Source: a virus
Length of the DNA stretch: 34,787 bases
Virus record (IMG/VR): IMGVR_UViG_3300010885_063252
Span: 1 to 34,787 of that record
Reading direction: 5' to 3' (one strand)
Shown here: positions 26,945 through 33,635 of the stretch, piece after piece
Position numbering within the stretch: position 1 is the first letter of the stretch
Layout: every line of letters begins with the position of its first letter
Made by a program: the position numbers and the translations under genes
The notes under the pieces: model-generated
The model's database searches: none
What the model was told of the DNA's origin: nothing
What the model saw: the letters and a program-made list of their open reading frames with translations, nothing else

Positions 26945-26952
26945 TATTTATA
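26945..26952 (-). promoter_or_regulatory. Predicted T4-type late promoter (TATAAATA) for the gp48-gp53-gp27-gp5 operon
   Basis: An exact match to the T4 late -10 element on the minus strand, continued as TATAAATAC. The predicted start is near 26939, 36 nt upstream of ATG 26903. With the plus-strand octamer it forms a 7-bp inverted repeat (ATAAATA / TATTTAT) separated by 11 nt. Confidence 0.75.
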
Positions 26953-26990
26953 TGACTTTTTTAGAAGTCAATAAAATAAATGGAAGTAAT

Positions 26991-27431
26991 ATGGCATATA
27001 AAGGACCGTTTCAACCAAAGAATCCAGCTAAATATAAAGGCGACCCTACTAAGATTATTTATCGTTCGCGCTGGGAATTAATGGTGATGCAAAGACTTGA
27101 TAGTCATCCTGATGTTTTACAATGGTCTTCTGAAGAGGTTGTAATACCCTATGTTAGTCCTATTGATAATAGATATCATAGGTACTTTATGGACTTTTAT
27201 ATGAAGCGTAAGAATAAACAAGGTAAGATCGAAGAAATATTGATTGAAGTCAAGCCTCTTGCTCAAACAAAGCCACCTACTGTTCAGAATAAACCAACAA
27301 AGCGTTATATTACTGAAGTTCAAACATGGGGTGTCAATTCCGCTAAGTGGGAGGCGGCTCGTGAATACTGTAAAGATCGTGGATGGCAATTTCAGATCAT
27401 AACCGAAAAAGAATTAGGACTGACCTTTTAG
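26991..27431 (+). CDS. 4: Head completion protein gp4 (PD-(D/E)XK nuclease-like)
   Basis: 146 residues from ATG 26991 (GGAAG four nt upstream), close to T4 gp4 (150). An ATG at 26952 would add 13 residues but lies only about 13 nt from the predicted transcript start and lacks a ribosome site. The family signature 'MAYKGPFQPKNPAKYKGDP' is at the N-terminus. A TnsA-like nuclease pattern is visible: E29 in 'RSRWELMVM', D68 in 'HRYFMDFYMK', and E86-V-K88 in 'ILIEVKPL'. gp4 acts after packaging to prepare heads for tail joining. It is the first gene of the plus-strand late operon. Confidence 0.9.
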   Translation: MAYKGPFQPKNPAKYKGDPTKIIYRSRWELMVMQRLDSHPDVLQWSSEEVVIPYVSPIDNRYHRYFMDFYMKRKNKQGKIEEILIEVKPLAQTKPPTVQNKPTKRYITEVQTWGVNSAKWEAAREYCKDRGWQFQIITEKELGLTF

Positions 27432-27439
27432 GAATTTAA

Positions 27440-28045
27440 ATGGCAAACATTTTTGATAAAGTATTGGACGATGGCGTAAGACGTGGGATGATTCCTGCGA
27501 AGACTGAGGCTGCTCGTAAATGGTACAGAGATGCTGCACAGGAATATACTCGCTATCGTGGCGAAGTAGGTCTTATGCGTTCAAACACCAATCGTCTCAC
27601 TAGGCGTATTAGACCAGGCAATATGTATATGTACTTCTATGATGCCAAGACAAAGGATGATCTACCATATTGGGATAGATTTCCAATGATATTTCCATTT
27701 CGTGTACAATCGGATAGATTTTGGGGCATAAATCTCCATTATCTTCCTTTGCTATATCGTGCTAAGCTAATGGATGCTTTGTATCAAACTAGAACAAATA
27801 GTCGTTATGATGAAACAACAAAACTTCGTATTAACTATCAAATTTTACAAAGTGCTGCAAAATTTAGATACTTTGAGCCTTGTGTCAAGCAATATCTTTT
27901 CTCACAGATGAAATCACAATTCTTTTATATACAGCCTGAAGAATGGGATGTTGCTCTATTCCTACCACTCGAAAGATTCCAGAAAGCAACTAAAACACAA
28001 GTATTTGCTGAATCAAGAAGAAAGATTGCTGGAGGAGGCAGATAA
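27440..28045 (+). CDS. 2: DNA end protector protein, gp2-like
   Basis: 201 residues, ATG 27440, nine nt after gp4. Motifs: 'RPGNMYMYFYDAKTKDDLPY', 'WDRFPMIFPF', 'FWGINLHYLPLLYRAKLMDA', 'FLPLERFQKATK'. I associate this pattern with the T4-like protein that protects packaged DNA ends from RecBCD and completes the head. In T4, genes 2 and 4 are neighbours, which agrees. The stop overlaps the next ATG (TAATG). The assignment depends on recalled family pattern plus synteny and is moderately sure. Confidence 0.6.
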   Translation: MANIFDKVLDDGVRRGMIPAKTEAARKWYRDAAQEYTRYRGEVGLMRSNTNRLTRRIRPGNMYMYFYDAKTKDDLPYWDRFPMIFPFRVQSDRFWGINLHYLPLLYRAKLMDALYQTRTNSRYDETTKLRINYQILQSAAKFRYFEPCVKQYLFSQMKSQFFYIQPEEWDVALFLPLERFQKATKTQVFAESRRKIAGGGR

Positions 28046-28779
28046 TGCATAACATTAAGGACTTCAGATCAGAAATTAATAAAAACGGCATAATAAAACC
28101 TAATAGGTTTATGGTCAACTTTAGACCACCAAATACATTAAAAGGTAGATCAACTAAAGAAGTTATATTGCGTTGTGAAGCACTTCAATGGCCCGGCGTA
28201 TCATTTACTACATTAGATGCGCCGCCAAGAGCAGGATATGGTGCAGGTGAAGTCATTCCTTTTGCTCCAATTTTTGAAGATATTACATTAAGCTTTATTG
28301 TCGATAAAAATTCAGATATACATAAATTCTTCTTTAATTGGATTAATAGTGTAATTAATCTTCGTAGTGAAGGGCAATCAAGATTTAAAGATGGCGCATT
28401 TGAAGTTGGCTATAAGGATGATTATTCAACTGACATAAATATCAGCGTATATAACGAAACTGGAACCTCAGATGAAGGAGGCGATAGTCCTATGACGGCA
28501 ACTCTTTATAGAGCATATCCAAGGGCATTGCCGGGGTTTGATTTGAATTGGAATATTACTGATGAAATGTTGAGATTGCCAGTTCAGTTTACATATACTG
28601 ATTATTTTATTACGTATCGTTCAGACACTCCTGTGGAACAAAAAAATGAACCGAAAATGAGAACTCAACAATCACTACCAGCAAAAACACCATCGGTTCG
28701 AATTGGTACACAATTACCACCTCCATTTGAAGGTGGCGGCGGTAGCTTTGGCGGTGGCGGTGCTAGTGGAAGTTTTTAA
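28045..28779 (+). CDS. 54: Tail tube-fold protein, probably baseplate-tail tube initiator gp54
   Basis: 244 residues, ATG 28045 behind GGAGGAGG, coupled to the previous stop. Residues 15-110 look like the T4 tube fold: 'IKPNRFMVNFRPP', 'VILRCEALQWPGVSF', 'DITLSFIVDKNSDIHKFFFN', 'WINSVI'. It is shorter than T4 gp54 (320 aa) but longer than gp19 (163 aa). The last 20 residues are Gly/Ser/Phe-rich, a flexible tail absent from a plain tube subunit. A major tube protein would normally be next to the sheath gene, which is not here, so the initiator role is preferred. Confidence 0.55.
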   Translation: MHNIKDFRSEINKNGIIKPNRFMVNFRPPNTLKGRSTKEVILRCEALQWPGVSFTTLDAPPRAGYGAGEVIPFAPIFEDITLSFIVDKNSDIHKFFFNWINSVINLRSEGQSRFKDGAFEVGYKDDYSTDINISVYNETGTSDEGGDSPMTATLYRAYPRALPGFDLNWNITDEMLRLPVQFTYTDYFITYRSDTPVEQKNEPKMRTQQSLPAKTPSVRIGTQLPPPFEGGGGSFGGGGASGSF

Positions 28780-28798: not shown

Positions 28799-29506
28799 AT
28801 GACATTACCTAAAATACAAAAACCATTATTTGATCTATTTGTACCATCAATGAATAAGTCAGTAAGAGCACGTCCATTTGTCGTGCGTGAAGAAAAAATT
28901 CTATTGACTGCCCAACAATCTGGTAACGAAAAAGATATTGTCCTTGCAATCAAGCAAGTTTTAAACAATTGTATTGTTGATGAATTCAATGTTGATGATT
29001 TGGCTACATTTGATTTGGAATATATGTTTCTTAAGTTACGTTCACGTTCAGTAAGTAATGTGATTGATGTATCTTATCGTGATAACGAAGATGATAAAGT
29101 ATATGATTTTCAAATCGACTTGGATGAAGTCGAACTTAAAATTGAAAAGGATATCTCAAACATCATCAAGGTCACTGATACCATTGGTATTAAGATGAAG
29201 TATCCATCAGTCACTATTCTTGATAATGTTCCAGAAACTGATAATACTAGTGATATAGTTGATTATCTTATCAAGAGTTGTGTTGACCAGATTTTTGATG
29301 AAGATAGTGTATATCCTGCTAGTGATCATACAGACGAAGAACTTAATGAGTTTCTTGATAGTATTGATATTGAAACATTTAATAAAATTCGTGATTTTTT
29401 TGAAAATCTTCCGCAAATGTACCATAAGCTTGAATATACCAATTCTAACGGCAATGTTCGTACAATTGAACTTACTACGTTAAGTGATTTTTTTATCTGG
29501 GGCTGA
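28799..29506 (+). CDS. 26: Baseplate hub assembly protein gp26-like (zero-frame product)
   Basis: 235 residues (T4 gp26: 208), ATG 28799 with GAGGAAAG upstream. The family pattern of T4-type baseplate proteins (PF12322) is visible: 'SVRARPFVVREEKILLTAQQ', 'VLNNCIVDEFNVDDLATFDL', 'EYMFLKLRSRSVSN', 'IGIKMKYPS', and the end 'TTLSDFFIWG'. In T4 it helps assemble the hub. It ends six bases after a run of seven T that forms a perfect T TTT TTT slippery site, followed by a -1 frame open to 29673. Confidence 0.82.
   Translation: MTLPKIQKPLFDLFVPSMNKSVRARPFVVREEKILLTAQQSGNEKDIVLAIKQVLNNCIVDEFNVDDLATFDLEYMFLKLRSRSVSNVIDVSYRDNEDDKVYDFQIDLDEVELKIEKDISNIIKVTDTIGIKMKYPSVTILDNVPETDNTSDIVDYLIKSCVDQIFDEDSVYPASDHTDEELNEFLDSIDIETFNKIRDFFENLPQMYHKLEYTNSNGNVRTIELTTLSDFFIWG
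29488..29494 (+). other. Candidate -1 ribosomal frameshift site (T TTT TTT)
   Basis: The zero frame reads GAT TTT TTT ATC TGG GGC TGA. The heptamer T TTT TTT is in the correct phase for tandem -1 slippage, and after slipping the ribosome reads TAT CTG GGG CTG AGC and continues to TAA 29671-29673. Six nt downstream, GGC-TGA-GCC can form only a 3-bp hairpin with the zero-frame stop in its loop, so a strong stimulator is not evident. Transcriptional slippage on the T run is an alternative. Confidence 0.6.
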
Positions 29507-29673
29507 GCCATAATACTCTTACAAACTATTATACAACTACGTTTGCATTGGTTCAGCACCACAAATATTCTATTACTGAAGTTGAAGATTTGATGCCTTA
29601 TGAAAGAGATTTGTATGTAGATATGTTATTAATACATCTTGAAAAAGAAAAAGAAGAGATGAAAAAGGGATAA
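29494..29673 (+). CDS. -1 frame extension of gp26 (59 codons; fused product about 291 aa)
   Basis: This frame has no plausible start of its own: the only ATGs are deep inside and no ribosome site is near. It encodes 'LTNYYTTTFALVQHHKYSIT', then 'EVEDLMPYERDLYVDMLLIH' and a charged end rich in Glu and Lys. The 'FALVQHH ... E..MPYERDIY' pattern resembles the downstream part of tail assembly chaperones made by frameshift in other phages. Joined to gp26 at the slippery site, it gives residues 1-232 plus 59. It otherwise fills a gap of about 170 bases before the next gene, in the place where T4 has gene 51. Confidence 0.65.
   Translation, partial: YLGLSHNTLTNYYTTTFALVQHHKYSITEVEDLMPYERDLYVDMLLIHLEKEKEEMKKG
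29665..29670 (+). promoter_or_regulatory. Ribosome binding site for the TTG start at 29680
   Basis: AAGGGA nine nt before TTG 29680, overlapping the final Lys-Gly codons of the -1 frame extension. Confidence 0.7.
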
Positions 29674-29679
29674 TATCAC

Positions 29680-31602
29680 TTGGCTGAAAAATCTGGCCCT
29701 AAAAAACCTAAAATGGATCGTAATAGCCCTGAATACAAGGAAAAACTTGAAAGCAGGGTGAAAAGACGTGACGATTATAGGAAAAAAAGAGATAAGAACA
29801 AACTAAAAAAGAATTTTGCTGAGCGTATGCTGGGCGCGTATGGGTTTGGGGAAGAGAATTTTAAAAAAGGCGGTCTTATTAAAGGCAAGCTTGGTTTGTT
29901 TGCTGGTGCTATGCAGCAAGGAAGAGAAGAAAGCGATACTTTTGCTCAACCTAAAATGGAAACTCCAAAGGTTGAACGCGAAAAACAAAATCCTAATATT
30001 TCAGTAATTATGGAGCAATTAAATTCTTTAATTGAAGTTGTCAAAAAAATTGGTGCAATTACTGAACAACAGCAAGAACAACTACAACAGCAATTTTCTC
30101 AAGCAGCGCGTAATTCTGAAGAAGCTTCCATGGAAAGAGGCAGTGGACCCAATGCATCTGGTCTTGGTGGACCTAATTTAAATTCCTTAAATGAAGAACT
30201 TGGCACTCTTATAGAGAAGTCACTTAGACCATTTAAAAAAATTATTGATGAAAAAGTCGAAGAACAAGAAGAAGAGCAGGGACCAAAAGGTTTCATGCAA
30301 AGACTTGCTGAAAATTATGGTGTTGGTGATGAATATGAAAAATTTGCAAAGCGTAGAGCTGCTAAAGCCGCCAGAATAAAAACAAAACCTGGTTATAAAA
30401 GAATTTTAGGCAGAGATGGTAGAATAACTTATCGTGGTCCAAATGGTAGAATAGTTTCTGCTGCTGATGCCATTGCTGAAAAATCAAGCAAACTTGCAAA
30501 AGTTGGCGGCATGGTTAAAAATGCTGGCGCAGGTCTTCTCAATATTGCCAAAAAAGCAACTAGTGGCGCTGGACGCATAGCATCAAAAATTAGTGGTGCT
30601 AGAATTGCATCAGGCATAGGTTCTGTAACAAAAAATATTTCTTCTTTGCTTGGTAAAGGTGTCAAAAGCGCAAATGTTGCTGCCAGTGCTGCAAGAAAAG
30701 TTGGTGCTTCTACTATCAAACGTATTGCTGGTCCAATCATCAAAAAAGCACTAGGCTCTACTGTATTAAAATCAATTCCAATTATTGGCGGTGCTGTTGG
30801 TGGTCTGTTTGCTGCAAAAAAATTATTAGAAGGCGATCCTGTTGGTGCTGGTCTAGAAGCTGCATCTGGTCTTGGTGGACCAATCACAGCTATTCCAGCG
30901 TTGGTTGCTTCTGCTTCACGTGATACCTATTCTTCTGTTTTTGATGTTCAACCAGAACAAGACCCAATGTTTGGCATCAGAATGAAGCTCATTACTGGTG
31001 TAATTGGTGGATTGGTAACTGCATATTTTGCATCAAGAATAGAAAAGAAGCCAACACCAACAAAAGATAATATTGATAAAATTTCAATTCCACCAAAGCC
31101 AGCACAAAAAACTGCGGGACAAACTGCAACTGGTATGCCAGCAATTCCAAATGCGCCAGCACCATCTCCTGCTAAATCAACATCGCCTTCGACTCCAACT
31201 TCAACACCAACTCCAAATTCAACACCAACTCCAAATTCAACTTCGTCTTCTAGCACATCAAGTTCTGCCACAAAAAAAAGCACGTCTGAATCAAAAAAAC
31301 AAGTTGCGGCTAGTAACGATAAAAATGATGCGGTAAAAAAGGAATCCAGTAAAGCTCAAAGTATGGTCAATAACGCTCCTAATACTGGTGCGGATATTTC
31401 TAAGATGACTGCTGAAGTTGAAGCTGCTGTAAATCAACCAAATGTTATTGATCTTAGTAGTAAGCGTCCATTACCTTCAAGTGCACCACCATCAAAAAGT
31501 GGTGTGTCTGGTGCAGGAAATGTACCTGATCCAAATTATTATGGTATGGGTGAAGTTTTCACACAAATGTACTTTAACCCTAATCCGATTACGCTAACAT
31601 GA
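29680..31602 (+). CDS. Membrane-active/tape-measure-like tail protein, unknown exact role
   Basis: 640 residues from TTG 29680 with AAGGGA nine nt upstream. Residues 1-60 are very basic and helical, 105-200 charged and Gln-rich helix. About 280-455 are Gly/Ala-rich and amphipathic to hydrophobic ('IPIIGGAVGGLFAAKKLLEG', 'KLITGVIGGLVTAYFASRI'), as expected of a segment that might enter a membrane. A low-complexity Pro/Thr/Ser linker follows (about 480-545), with an 18-bp tandem duplication at 31201-31236. Its length is near T4 gp29 (590), and its position after gp26 matches the hub/tape-measure genes, but no direct similarity to gp29 is clear. Its stop overlaps the next ATG (ATGA), so the two products are probably made together. 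Confidence 0.6.
   Translation: MAEKSGPKKPKMDRNSPEYKEKLESRVKRRDDYRKKRDKNKLKKNFAERMLGAYGFGEENFKKGGLIKGKLGLFAGAMQQGREESDTFAQPKMETPKVEREKQNPNISVIMEQLNSLIEVVKKIGAITEQQQEQLQQQFSQAARNSEEASMERGSGPNASGLGGPNLNSLNEELGTLIEKSLRPFKKIIDEKVEEQEEEQGPKGFMQRLAENYGVGDEYEKFAKRRAAKAARIKTKPGYKRILGRDGRITYRGPNGRIVSAADAIAEKSSKLAKVGGMVKNAGAGLLNIAKKATSGAGRIASKISGARIASGIGSVTKNISSLLGKGVKSANVAASAARKVGASTIKRIAGPIIKKALGSTVLKSIPIIGGAVGGLFAAKKLLEGDPVGAGLEAASGLGGPITAIPALVASASRDTYSSVFDVQPEQDPMFGIRMKLITGVIGGLVTAYFASRIEKKPTPTKDNIDKISIPPKPAQKTAGQTATGMPAIPNAPAPSPAKSTSPSTPTSTPTPNSTPTPNSTSSSSTSSSATKKSTSESKKQVAASNDKNDAVKKESSKAQSMVNNAPNTGADISKMTAEVEAAVNQPNVIDLSSKRPLPSSAPPSKSGVSGAGNVPDPNYYGMGEVFTQMYFNPNPITLT
31201..31236 (+). repeat. 18-bp tandem duplication in the Pro/Thr/Ser linker
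   Basis: Two exact copies of an 18-base unit encode S-T-P-T-P-N twice, within a longer Pro/Thr/Ser linker. It is probably slippage-prone and of variable length among relatives. Confidence 0.85.
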
Positions 31603-33635
31603 TAAAAGCACTAAAAAATATTGATGGAAATGAATTAAATAATCTGGCTAAAAAGACCAGTGTCATTCGTATGTCAAATCAAAATAAACAAGATTCTCAA
31701 CAATATACTTTGACTAAAAAAACAACTGCTACTATGTCTAATAATTTTACAACACTTTATAATTCTTTTAATAAAATATTATCAAACACTAAAAATGTGA
31801 AAGAATTACAAAAAGTTCAGACAAAAAGTAATCAGAATAAAAATACTACTATCATTGCTGCTCCTGTACAAATTATTGGTGTAGAAAAGTTAACTGGAAA
31901 TATAAAAATTCTTGGTAAATATTTTGAAAACTTAGCCAAATTAATGAAAAAGCTTGATTTAAATCCAGATGAAAATGATCAGGATGAAGATAGCGGTGAT
32001 GATACGACAATCATTGATGCTGATGAAAAAAAGAAAAAGAAAACTAAAGGCAAGAAAAAGGGCAGAGGAAAAACAAAACTAAAAGGTCGTGGTCGTGGTC
32101 TTGGTGGTAAAGCTCTTGGTATCTTTGCGGCTGGCATGGACATGTTTGATAGACTTGGTGATGGAGAAAGCATCACAGAGGCTGGCGTAGGCGTTGCTGG
32201 TGGCGTTGCTGGTGGTTTCGCTGGTGCAGAGGCAGGTGCTGCTTTAGGCGCTCTAGGCGGTGTCGCTGCGCCAATTACAGTGCCTCTTGGTGGTCTTATC
32301 GGTGGTGCTATTGGTTATTTTGCTGGTGGAAAGATTGCAGATACAGCATATGATGCTGCCACAAAGGTATCACCTGCTGATAAGAGACTTGAAAGTGCTG
32401 CTGCTAAAGCATCTGTAGTACCTGCTAGACGTGAACCATCAGAAATTAGTAATAATAGTTATTCAAGTCGTTTTGCTGATTATCTTAGCGATACATTTGA
32501 TAATGTAAAAAGTTATGTTAGTGGAATAATTGGATATGTTCTTGGTCCAGATATTGGCGGTGGTGGTGATGGTGGTCAACAAGGACCATTAAGTGGCAAC
32601 ACTAATGAAAATTTTCAAAAAATCATGGATATTGCTTCTAGATATGGCGATCCACACCCAGAATTAACTGCCGCACAATGGGCGCACGAATCTGGAAGTG
32701 GAACATCTCGTATGGCAAGAGAATTGAATAATCCATTTGGGCAAACTACAAATAATCCAAATGATGGAGAAACTGTTGTAGGAAAAGATGGTGTAACTCG
32801 TATTTTTAAAAGATATAATTCAATTGAGGATGCCATTAAACACCACGTAGAAAGATGGAATAAAAGATATACAGATTCTAAACAAACACCAAGACAAGCT
32901 CTGAGTCAAATTCTTAATAATAGATACACAACTGAAGCAGAAAAGCCAGGTTATTATGCTGCTATTGGACAACATCTTGCATCAAATAATATTTCTTATG
33001 ACAGTCCATACACACCAACTGGTCCATTAACTGGCGGTCAATTAATGAACCCTGTTCCTAGTGGTCGATTTAAAAGTGGTTTTGGTGATTCACGCGAAGG
33101 TGGACGTAAGCACAAAGGGATTGATCTTGCCGCACCAATTGGAACCCCAATTATGGCTTCTGCTGCTGGTAAAGTGGTGCTTGTTGGTTGGAGCGGCGCA
33201 TATGGCGGCAATAGAGTTCGAATAGACCATGGCAACGGGCTATGGACAAGTTATGAACATATGAGTAGATTTGCTGTCCGCGAAGGCCAAGATGTAGTTG
33301 CTGGACAAATTATTGGGGCAGTAGGCAATACAGGCATTGGAACTGGACCCCATGTTCATTTTACAGTCTGGAGAGATGGTAAAGAGACTGACCCTATTCC
33401 TTATATTTCTGCACCAAACCCAGCGCCAAGACCTGAAATGAAAAAATCTGCTAAATGGCAGAAAGCAGCAGAAACTTTATATGGTCCGAAAAAAACAAAA
33501 AAACCTAGTTTGTTGATTGTCCCTTCATCACCACAACAACAACAAATTCCATATCAATTTAATTTTGGCACACAAAGACCAAAGCAACAAAATTCAAATT
33601 CTAAAAGTCAATATTTAAACTACCACAACCAATAA
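31599..33635 (+). CDS. Tail-associated lysin with glucosaminidase and M23 endopeptidase domains
   Basis: 678 residues, ATG 31599 overlapping the previous stop by four nt. Residues 124-142 are acidic and 143-168 strongly basic. About 168-255 are Gly/Ala-rich and hydrophobic ('GVGVAGGVAGGFAGAEAGAA', 'PLGGLIGGAIGYFAGGKIAD'), possibly membrane-inserting. Residues 340-465 match a FlgJ/glucosaminidase fold, with E364 in 'TAAQWAHESGSG' and 'NNPFG'. Residues 493-600 are an M23 peptidase with all key residues: H505 and D509 ('HKGIDLA'), H554 ('SYEHMS'), and H585/H587 ('GTGPHVHF'). The protein would cut both glycan and peptide bonds at the tail tip on entry, replacing the lysozyme missing from gp5. It may also be the tape measure or hub protein; the C-terminus is Gln/Pro/Asn-rich and flexible. 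Confidence 0.85.
   Translation: MIKALKNIDGNELNNLAKKTSVIRMSNQNKQDSQQYTLTKKTTATMSNNFTTLYNSFNKILSNTKNVKELQKVQTKSNQNKNTTIIAAPVQIIGVEKLTGNIKILGKYFENLAKLMKKLDLNPDENDQDEDSGDDTTIIDADEKKKKKTKGKKKGRGKTKLKGRGRGLGGKALGIFAAGMDMFDRLGDGESITEAGVGVAGGVAGGFAGAEAGAALGALGGVAAPITVPLGGLIGGAIGYFAGGKIADTAYDAATKVSPADKRLESAAAKASVVPARREPSEISNNSYSSRFADYLSDTFDNVKSYVSGIIGYVLGPDIGGGGDGGQQGPLSGNTNENFQKIMDIASRYGDPHPELTAAQWAHESGSGTSRMARELNNPFGQTTNNPNDGETVVGKDGVTRIFKRYNSIEDAIKHHVERWNKRYTDSKQTPRQALSQILNNRYTTEAEKPGYYAAIGQHLASNNISYDSPYTPTGPLTGGQLMNPVPSGRFKSGFGDSREGGRKHKGIDLAAPIGTPIMASAAGKVVLVGWSGAYGGNRVRIDHGNGLWTSYEHMSRFAVREGQDVVAGQIIGAVGNTGIGTGPHVHFTVWRDGKETDPIPYISAPNPAPRPEMKKSAKWQKAAETLYGPKKTKKPSLLIVPSSPQQQQIPYQFNFGTQRPKQQNSNSKSQYLNYHNQ

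Follow-up and report, generated by a model that had tools for sequence, protein, structure and literature searches.

Organization of the gene 26 locus

The window (i.e., the whole 34.8-kb stretch of DNA analyzed) comes from a virus record and represents part of a T4-like phage genome. Its gene 26 lies immediately downstream of the tail tube protein gene and runs into an open -1 frame, and the locus includes the following features, all on the + strand.

28045..28779, +, tail tube protein gene, immediately upstream of gene 26 (phrog_45, 8.3e-29; PF23849, 3e-15)
28799..29506, +, gp26, the short form (TAC-N-like), 235 aa (PF12322 T4_baseplate, 1e-55; phrog_150, 4.6e-59)
29488..29494, +, slippery heptamer T TTT TTT, in phase (direct reading; conserved position)
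29494..29673, +, -1 frame extension, 59 codons plus TAA at 29671-29673 (phrog_634, 2.5e-23; pN/pS; gp51-type profile)
29498..29561, +, predicted RNA stem, a likely 3' stimulator (29498-29500 and 29502-29510 pair with 29549-29557 and 29559-29561)
29504..29506, +, zero-frame stop TGA, inside the predicted stem (direct reading)
29680..31602, +, next gene, 640 aa, TTG start, tape measure candidate (position only)

The gene 26 product scored 189.2 bits against the PF12322 profile over residues 15 to 232 (curated cut-off, 24.5), which places it in that family. The 3' end of the gene reads GAT TTT TTT ATC TGG GGC TGA, with nine bases between the end of the T run and the TGA. After a -1 slip on this run, the reading becomes TAT CTG GGG and continues for 59 codons, up to a TAA that ends seven bases before the next gene. 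The upstream limit of the -1 frame is a TGA abutting the T run, and its first ATG, GTG, or TTG is a TTG at 29548, 18 codons in and well within the conserved domain. A sequence-only reading of the same DNA had pointed to seven T in phase near the gp26 stop, to a -1 frame open for 59 codons with no start of its own, and to two products of about 235 and 291 aa. All three points were borne out, the computed lengths being 235 aa for gp26 and 291 aa for the fused long form (both predicted products), whose predicted junction reads SDFFYLGLSH.

The extension alone matched phrog_634 ("baseplate hub assembly catalyst," gp51; 2.5e-23), which answers the search against phage proteins that had been proposed for it, and it is present in 564 public phage records. 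This match, together with the retention of site and frame in relatives (see below), indicates that the extension is not a chance open frame.

A second in-phase T TTT TTT lies within gene 26 at 29394-29400 (GAT TTT TTT GAA), where a -1 slip meets a TGA at once. Only the nearest relatives (L001, L002, and L039) retain this copy; thus, a heptamer alone is weak evidence, and conservation is what counts.

Conservation of the slippery site and the -1 frame

A profile was used to locate the extension in 278 gene 26 loci that we gathered from IMG/VR and GenBank. It was found in 270 loci, always in the -1 frame (270/270), and the junction carried T TTT TTY in 268 of these, with T TTT TTA in one further locus (L201). 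In a non-redundant set of 109 representatives at 75% protein identity, 107 had T TTT TTY (64 TTTTTTC and 43 TTTTTTT); the loci share descent, so these counts do not stand for independent events, and the 75% reduction only lessens kinship. The remaining Phe-Phe pairs in these genes served as an internal control and were slippery (i.e., preceded by T and with TTT as the first codon) in 1 of 102 cases. That single case is the window's own pair at 29394-29400; the family otherwise avoids this spelling. The arrangement is kept in S-PM2, P-SSM2, P-SSM4, phiN3, HTVC008M, KVP40, PX29, LPCS28, Melnitz, and others.

Selection on the extension was read from pN/pS, which was 0.22 in the -1 frame versus 1.28 and 2.01 in the other two frames; gp26 itself has an equal value (0.23). 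Only in the -1 frame does the extension evolve as a protein. The conservation of heptamer and frame among related gene 26 loci, the purifying selection in the -1 frame, and the downstream RNA stem described below support the programmed -1 frameshift that the sequence-only reading had suggested for this gene.

Some loci depart from this pattern. In a Kuttervirus (L095:1960-2160) and in Vibrio phage D533 (L096:1890-2100), an extension-like -1 frame follows gene 26 without a canonical heptamer (GAG ATT TTC ATT TAA and TCA CTT TTC AAG TAATG, respectively), and these distant groups may reach the long form by another mechanism or use a separate start. In L063 (3640-3720), gene 26 is interrupted by an in-frame TAG that precedes the usual stop by 36 bases, and the slippery site beyond this TAG is intact; the TAG represents either a nonsense change or a sequence error.

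Putative stimulatory elements

The predicted stem begins 3 nt after the heptamer, comprises 12 bp with interruptions, and encloses the zero-frame stop. Folding of 29495-29562 gave a minimum free energy of -18.2 kcal/mol, and none of 200 shuffles was as stable. Since the stem region codes for conserved residues, synonymous codons were also shuffled with the gp26 overlap held fixed, and the stem again stood out (z, -4.3; 0/300 as stable). Downstream structure beyond coding need (synonymous shuffles, p 0.05) was detected in 71 of 106 representatives. The stem was found in 21 relatives by RNAalifold consensus, and sliding the stem partners lowered the pairing from 96% to at most 44%. Covariation in the stem did not rise above that of shuffles (88/500 reached the observed value); the 12-bp stem is thus likely but not proven. 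It is absent in a few relatives (L010, L019, and L231).

In cyanophage-type loci, a GAGG/GGAG-like element precedes the heptamer by 8 to 9 nt, with a mean duplex energy of -7.25 versus a background of -1.0 kcal/mol. Such an upstream Shine-Dalgarno-like element was sought in the window's clade and not found there (mean, -0.97 versus a background of -0.75 kcal/mol). Where Glu-Gly is encoded at the element site, GAG is preferred over GAA (49/63), whereas GAA dominates elsewhere (47/61), which argues that the element has been chosen beyond the requirements of the protein sequence. In S-PM2, the element reads GGAGGGA and lies about 23 nt from the annotated gp51 start; its distance from annotated gp51 starts is too great for an ordinary ribosome site. 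An upstream Shine-Dalgarno-like sequence combined with a downstream stem is the arrangement of dnaX. The presence of the upstream element in most T4-like lineages and its absence from the window's clade have possibly gone unreported so far.

Relationship to T4 gp26 and gp51

In T4, genes 26 and 51 are separate and lie on opposite strands (i.e., they are divergently transcribed). Residues 1 to 201 of T4 gp51 match PF12322 and its C terminus corresponds to the extension domain, all in one frame. A profile built from 196 frameshift-type extensions alone ranked 6 of 6 gp51 proteins above 1,600 shuffled sequences (with E-values from this small set), and it gave no match to T4 gp26. In the model of a T4-type gp51, strands and helices follow one another largely as in the gp26 model, with three additional helices at 206 to 248. 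By PF12322 and extension homology and by comparison of the predicted structures, T4 gp51 is the counterpart of the long form, and T4 gp26 is that of the short form. The homology of the extension to the C terminus of T4 gp51 also lends support to the earlier proposal that the long form does the job of T4 gp51.

The two systems differ in that T4 has two divergent genes without a slippery site, whereas the window has one gene with such a site. T4 gp26 still ends in Phe-Phe, but its spelling there (GAG TTC TTT) is non-slippery; Aeromonas phage 31 has lost the heptamer motif. The state of the site in these two phages fits a loss of frameshifting where two genes exist.

Predicted fold and neighboring genes

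The AlphaFold2 model of gp26 (pLDDT, 85) matched three solved chaperone-like chains over residues 1 to 94, namely 3fgx (Z, 8.0), the HK97 tail-assembly chaperone gp13 (2ob9; Z, 6.9), and YqbN (3klu; Z, 6.6), the next and unrelated chain having a Z of 2.9. YqbN is a prophage chaperone of the XkdN kind. The comparison suggests a tail-assembly chaperone-like fold for gp26, a prediction of middling strength since Foldseek alone gave a weak match between the model and 2ob9 (E, 0.98). Sequence searches of solved structures with gp26 and with T4 gp51 returned no matches, and no chaperone was among the matches listed for the T4-type gp51 model.

The G and GT proteins of lambda attach to the tape measure protein, and the tail tube protein is bound through the T part (PMC5009743). 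With its chaperone-like predicted fold and a tail tube gene directly upstream, the window's locus looks like a lambda G/GT module, and a chaperone action would follow by analogy. It shares with gpG/gpGT a predicted short form and -1 long form, a position beside the tail tube gene, and a predicted chaperone-like fold; it differs in its heptamer and in that the window's phage has a contractile T4-type tail. The predicted fold and the conserved -1 extension thus agree with the chaperone pair of lambda G/GT type that had been put forward from the sequence. A further likeness is to the tail-assembly chaperone of Vandenendeviridae (phage Adele; PMC12846349), which has a conserved -1 shift at a T-rich site but belongs to another family and uses the motif GTTTTT.

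The tape measure candidate (29680..31602) is a low-complexity protein. The adjacent 678-aa protein (31599-33635) carries Peptidase_M23 (3.8e-34) and glucosaminidase (4.2e-14) domains and is probably a tail-associated wall-degrading protein. The 640-aa protein showed no BLAST similarity to the annotated tape measures of Cr30 or HTVC008M, and neither of the two proteins (640 and 678 aa) resembled annotated tape measures. Further upstream, 26952-27431 encodes a T4 gp4-type head closure protein (phrog_218, 3.2e-61) whose N-terminal domain is TnsA endonuclease-like (PF08722, 4e-26).

Probable origin of the long form

Public cyanophage annotations draw the extension as a separate small gene (gp51, about 55 aa), which would be expressed by translational coupling near the gp26 stop. 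An ATG does lie at or just after that stop in several phages (e.g., Cr30 and KVP40) and near the junction in 64 of the 109 representative loci, and databases annotate a short gp51 there. However, the window offers no start before the TTG inside the domain. Near the junction, 45 of the 109 loci have no ATG and 22 have no ATG, GTG, or TTG at all, but the heptamer is kept in 107; sequence conservation sets in at the slip point, before those starts are reached, and T4 gp51 is the full fusion. We therefore consider a separate gene to be an improbable explanation for the extension.

Slippage of RNA polymerase, yielding mRNAs with altered T counts that fuse the two frames, would draw on the same homopolymer of seven T, and bacterial examples of transcriptional slippage are known at stretches of about nine A or T (PMC5009743). 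Against this, the run in 64 of the 109 loci is just six T and then a C, the codon phase and tRNA re-pairing are kept rather than the run length, and a downstream stem or an upstream Shine-Dalgarno-like element fits ribosomal shifting. Transcriptional slippage was rejected as the main route because of the six T plus C in most lineages, and we rate it even lower than a separate gene. Homopolymers are also error-prone, and a sequencing or assembly error might have split one continuous gene; yet the seven T and the -1 arrangement are identical in dozens of independent contigs, the -1 arrangement recurs in cultured phage genomes, and other lineages read TTTTTTC. With an in-frame fusion of gp26 and the extension in none of the 270 loci, the comparison excludes such an error, to which we assign a negligible probability. 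A +1 shift was rejected, as the extension is always in the -1 frame.

It is thus very probable that gene 26 makes a short and a long tail-assembly chaperone by a programmed -1 slip at T TTT TTT, presumably aided by the stem, with the long form equivalent to T4 gp51. Most ribosomes would stop at 29506 and release the 235-aa short form (T4 gp26). A fraction would slip back by one base, with two Phe tRNAs on T TTT TTT and with help from the RNA stem that begins 3 nt downstream, and would go on for 59 codons to make the 291-aa long form. If lambda G/GT is taken as the model, a coat of many short and few long molecules may form on the tape measure protein and recruit tail tube subunits to it while the hub and tail are assembled. 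Some phages might additionally make a short gp51 by separate initiation, given that an ATG lies near the junction in 64 of the 109 loci.

Discussion

The sequence-only reading knew of no described frameshift in a T4-type gene 26. This view does not hold, since Vladimirov et al. (2022), as represented in citing papers, had already described these chaperone genes, together with poly-T signals for frameshifting, from T4-like phages. As far as that account goes, the window is a clear new example of a reported arrangement and not a new phenomenon. Frameshifting is reportedly conserved in several T4-like groups, with T4 itself said in the abstract of that report to use genes 26 and 51. What sets the window apart is that it represents an uncultivated clade without the upstream Shine-Dalgarno-like element and with the downstream 12-bp stem.

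Sullivan et al. (2010) found that cyanophage and marine vibriophage gp51 lacks the first ~200 residues, cyanophage gp51 being ~20% of the length of T4 gp51 (PMC3037559); the relevant passages of that paper give no explanation for the short protein. Frameshifting would account for this puzzle, with the missing ~200 residues coming from gp26. In GenBank, the extension is unannotated in Synechococcus phage ACG-2014e (L083:1501-1680), and in other cyanophages it is annotated as a separate gp51 gene. A re-annotation is due for many public genomes, in which the extension either appears as an independent "baseplate hub assembly catalyst" or is missing.

We tentatively propose, as a possibility somewhat short of an even chance, that T4-like chaperone genes set the ratio of short to long form with exchangeable stimulators. 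Most lineages would use an upstream Shine-Dalgarno-like sequence at 8 to 9 nt, whereas the window's clade would have lost it and would rely on T TTT TTT and the 12-bp stem enclosing the zero-frame stop. Lineages that have either a single shifting gene (cyanophage type) or two separate genes (T4 type), and either an upstream or a downstream stimulator, would offer a natural series in which the setting of the chaperone ratio can be examined.
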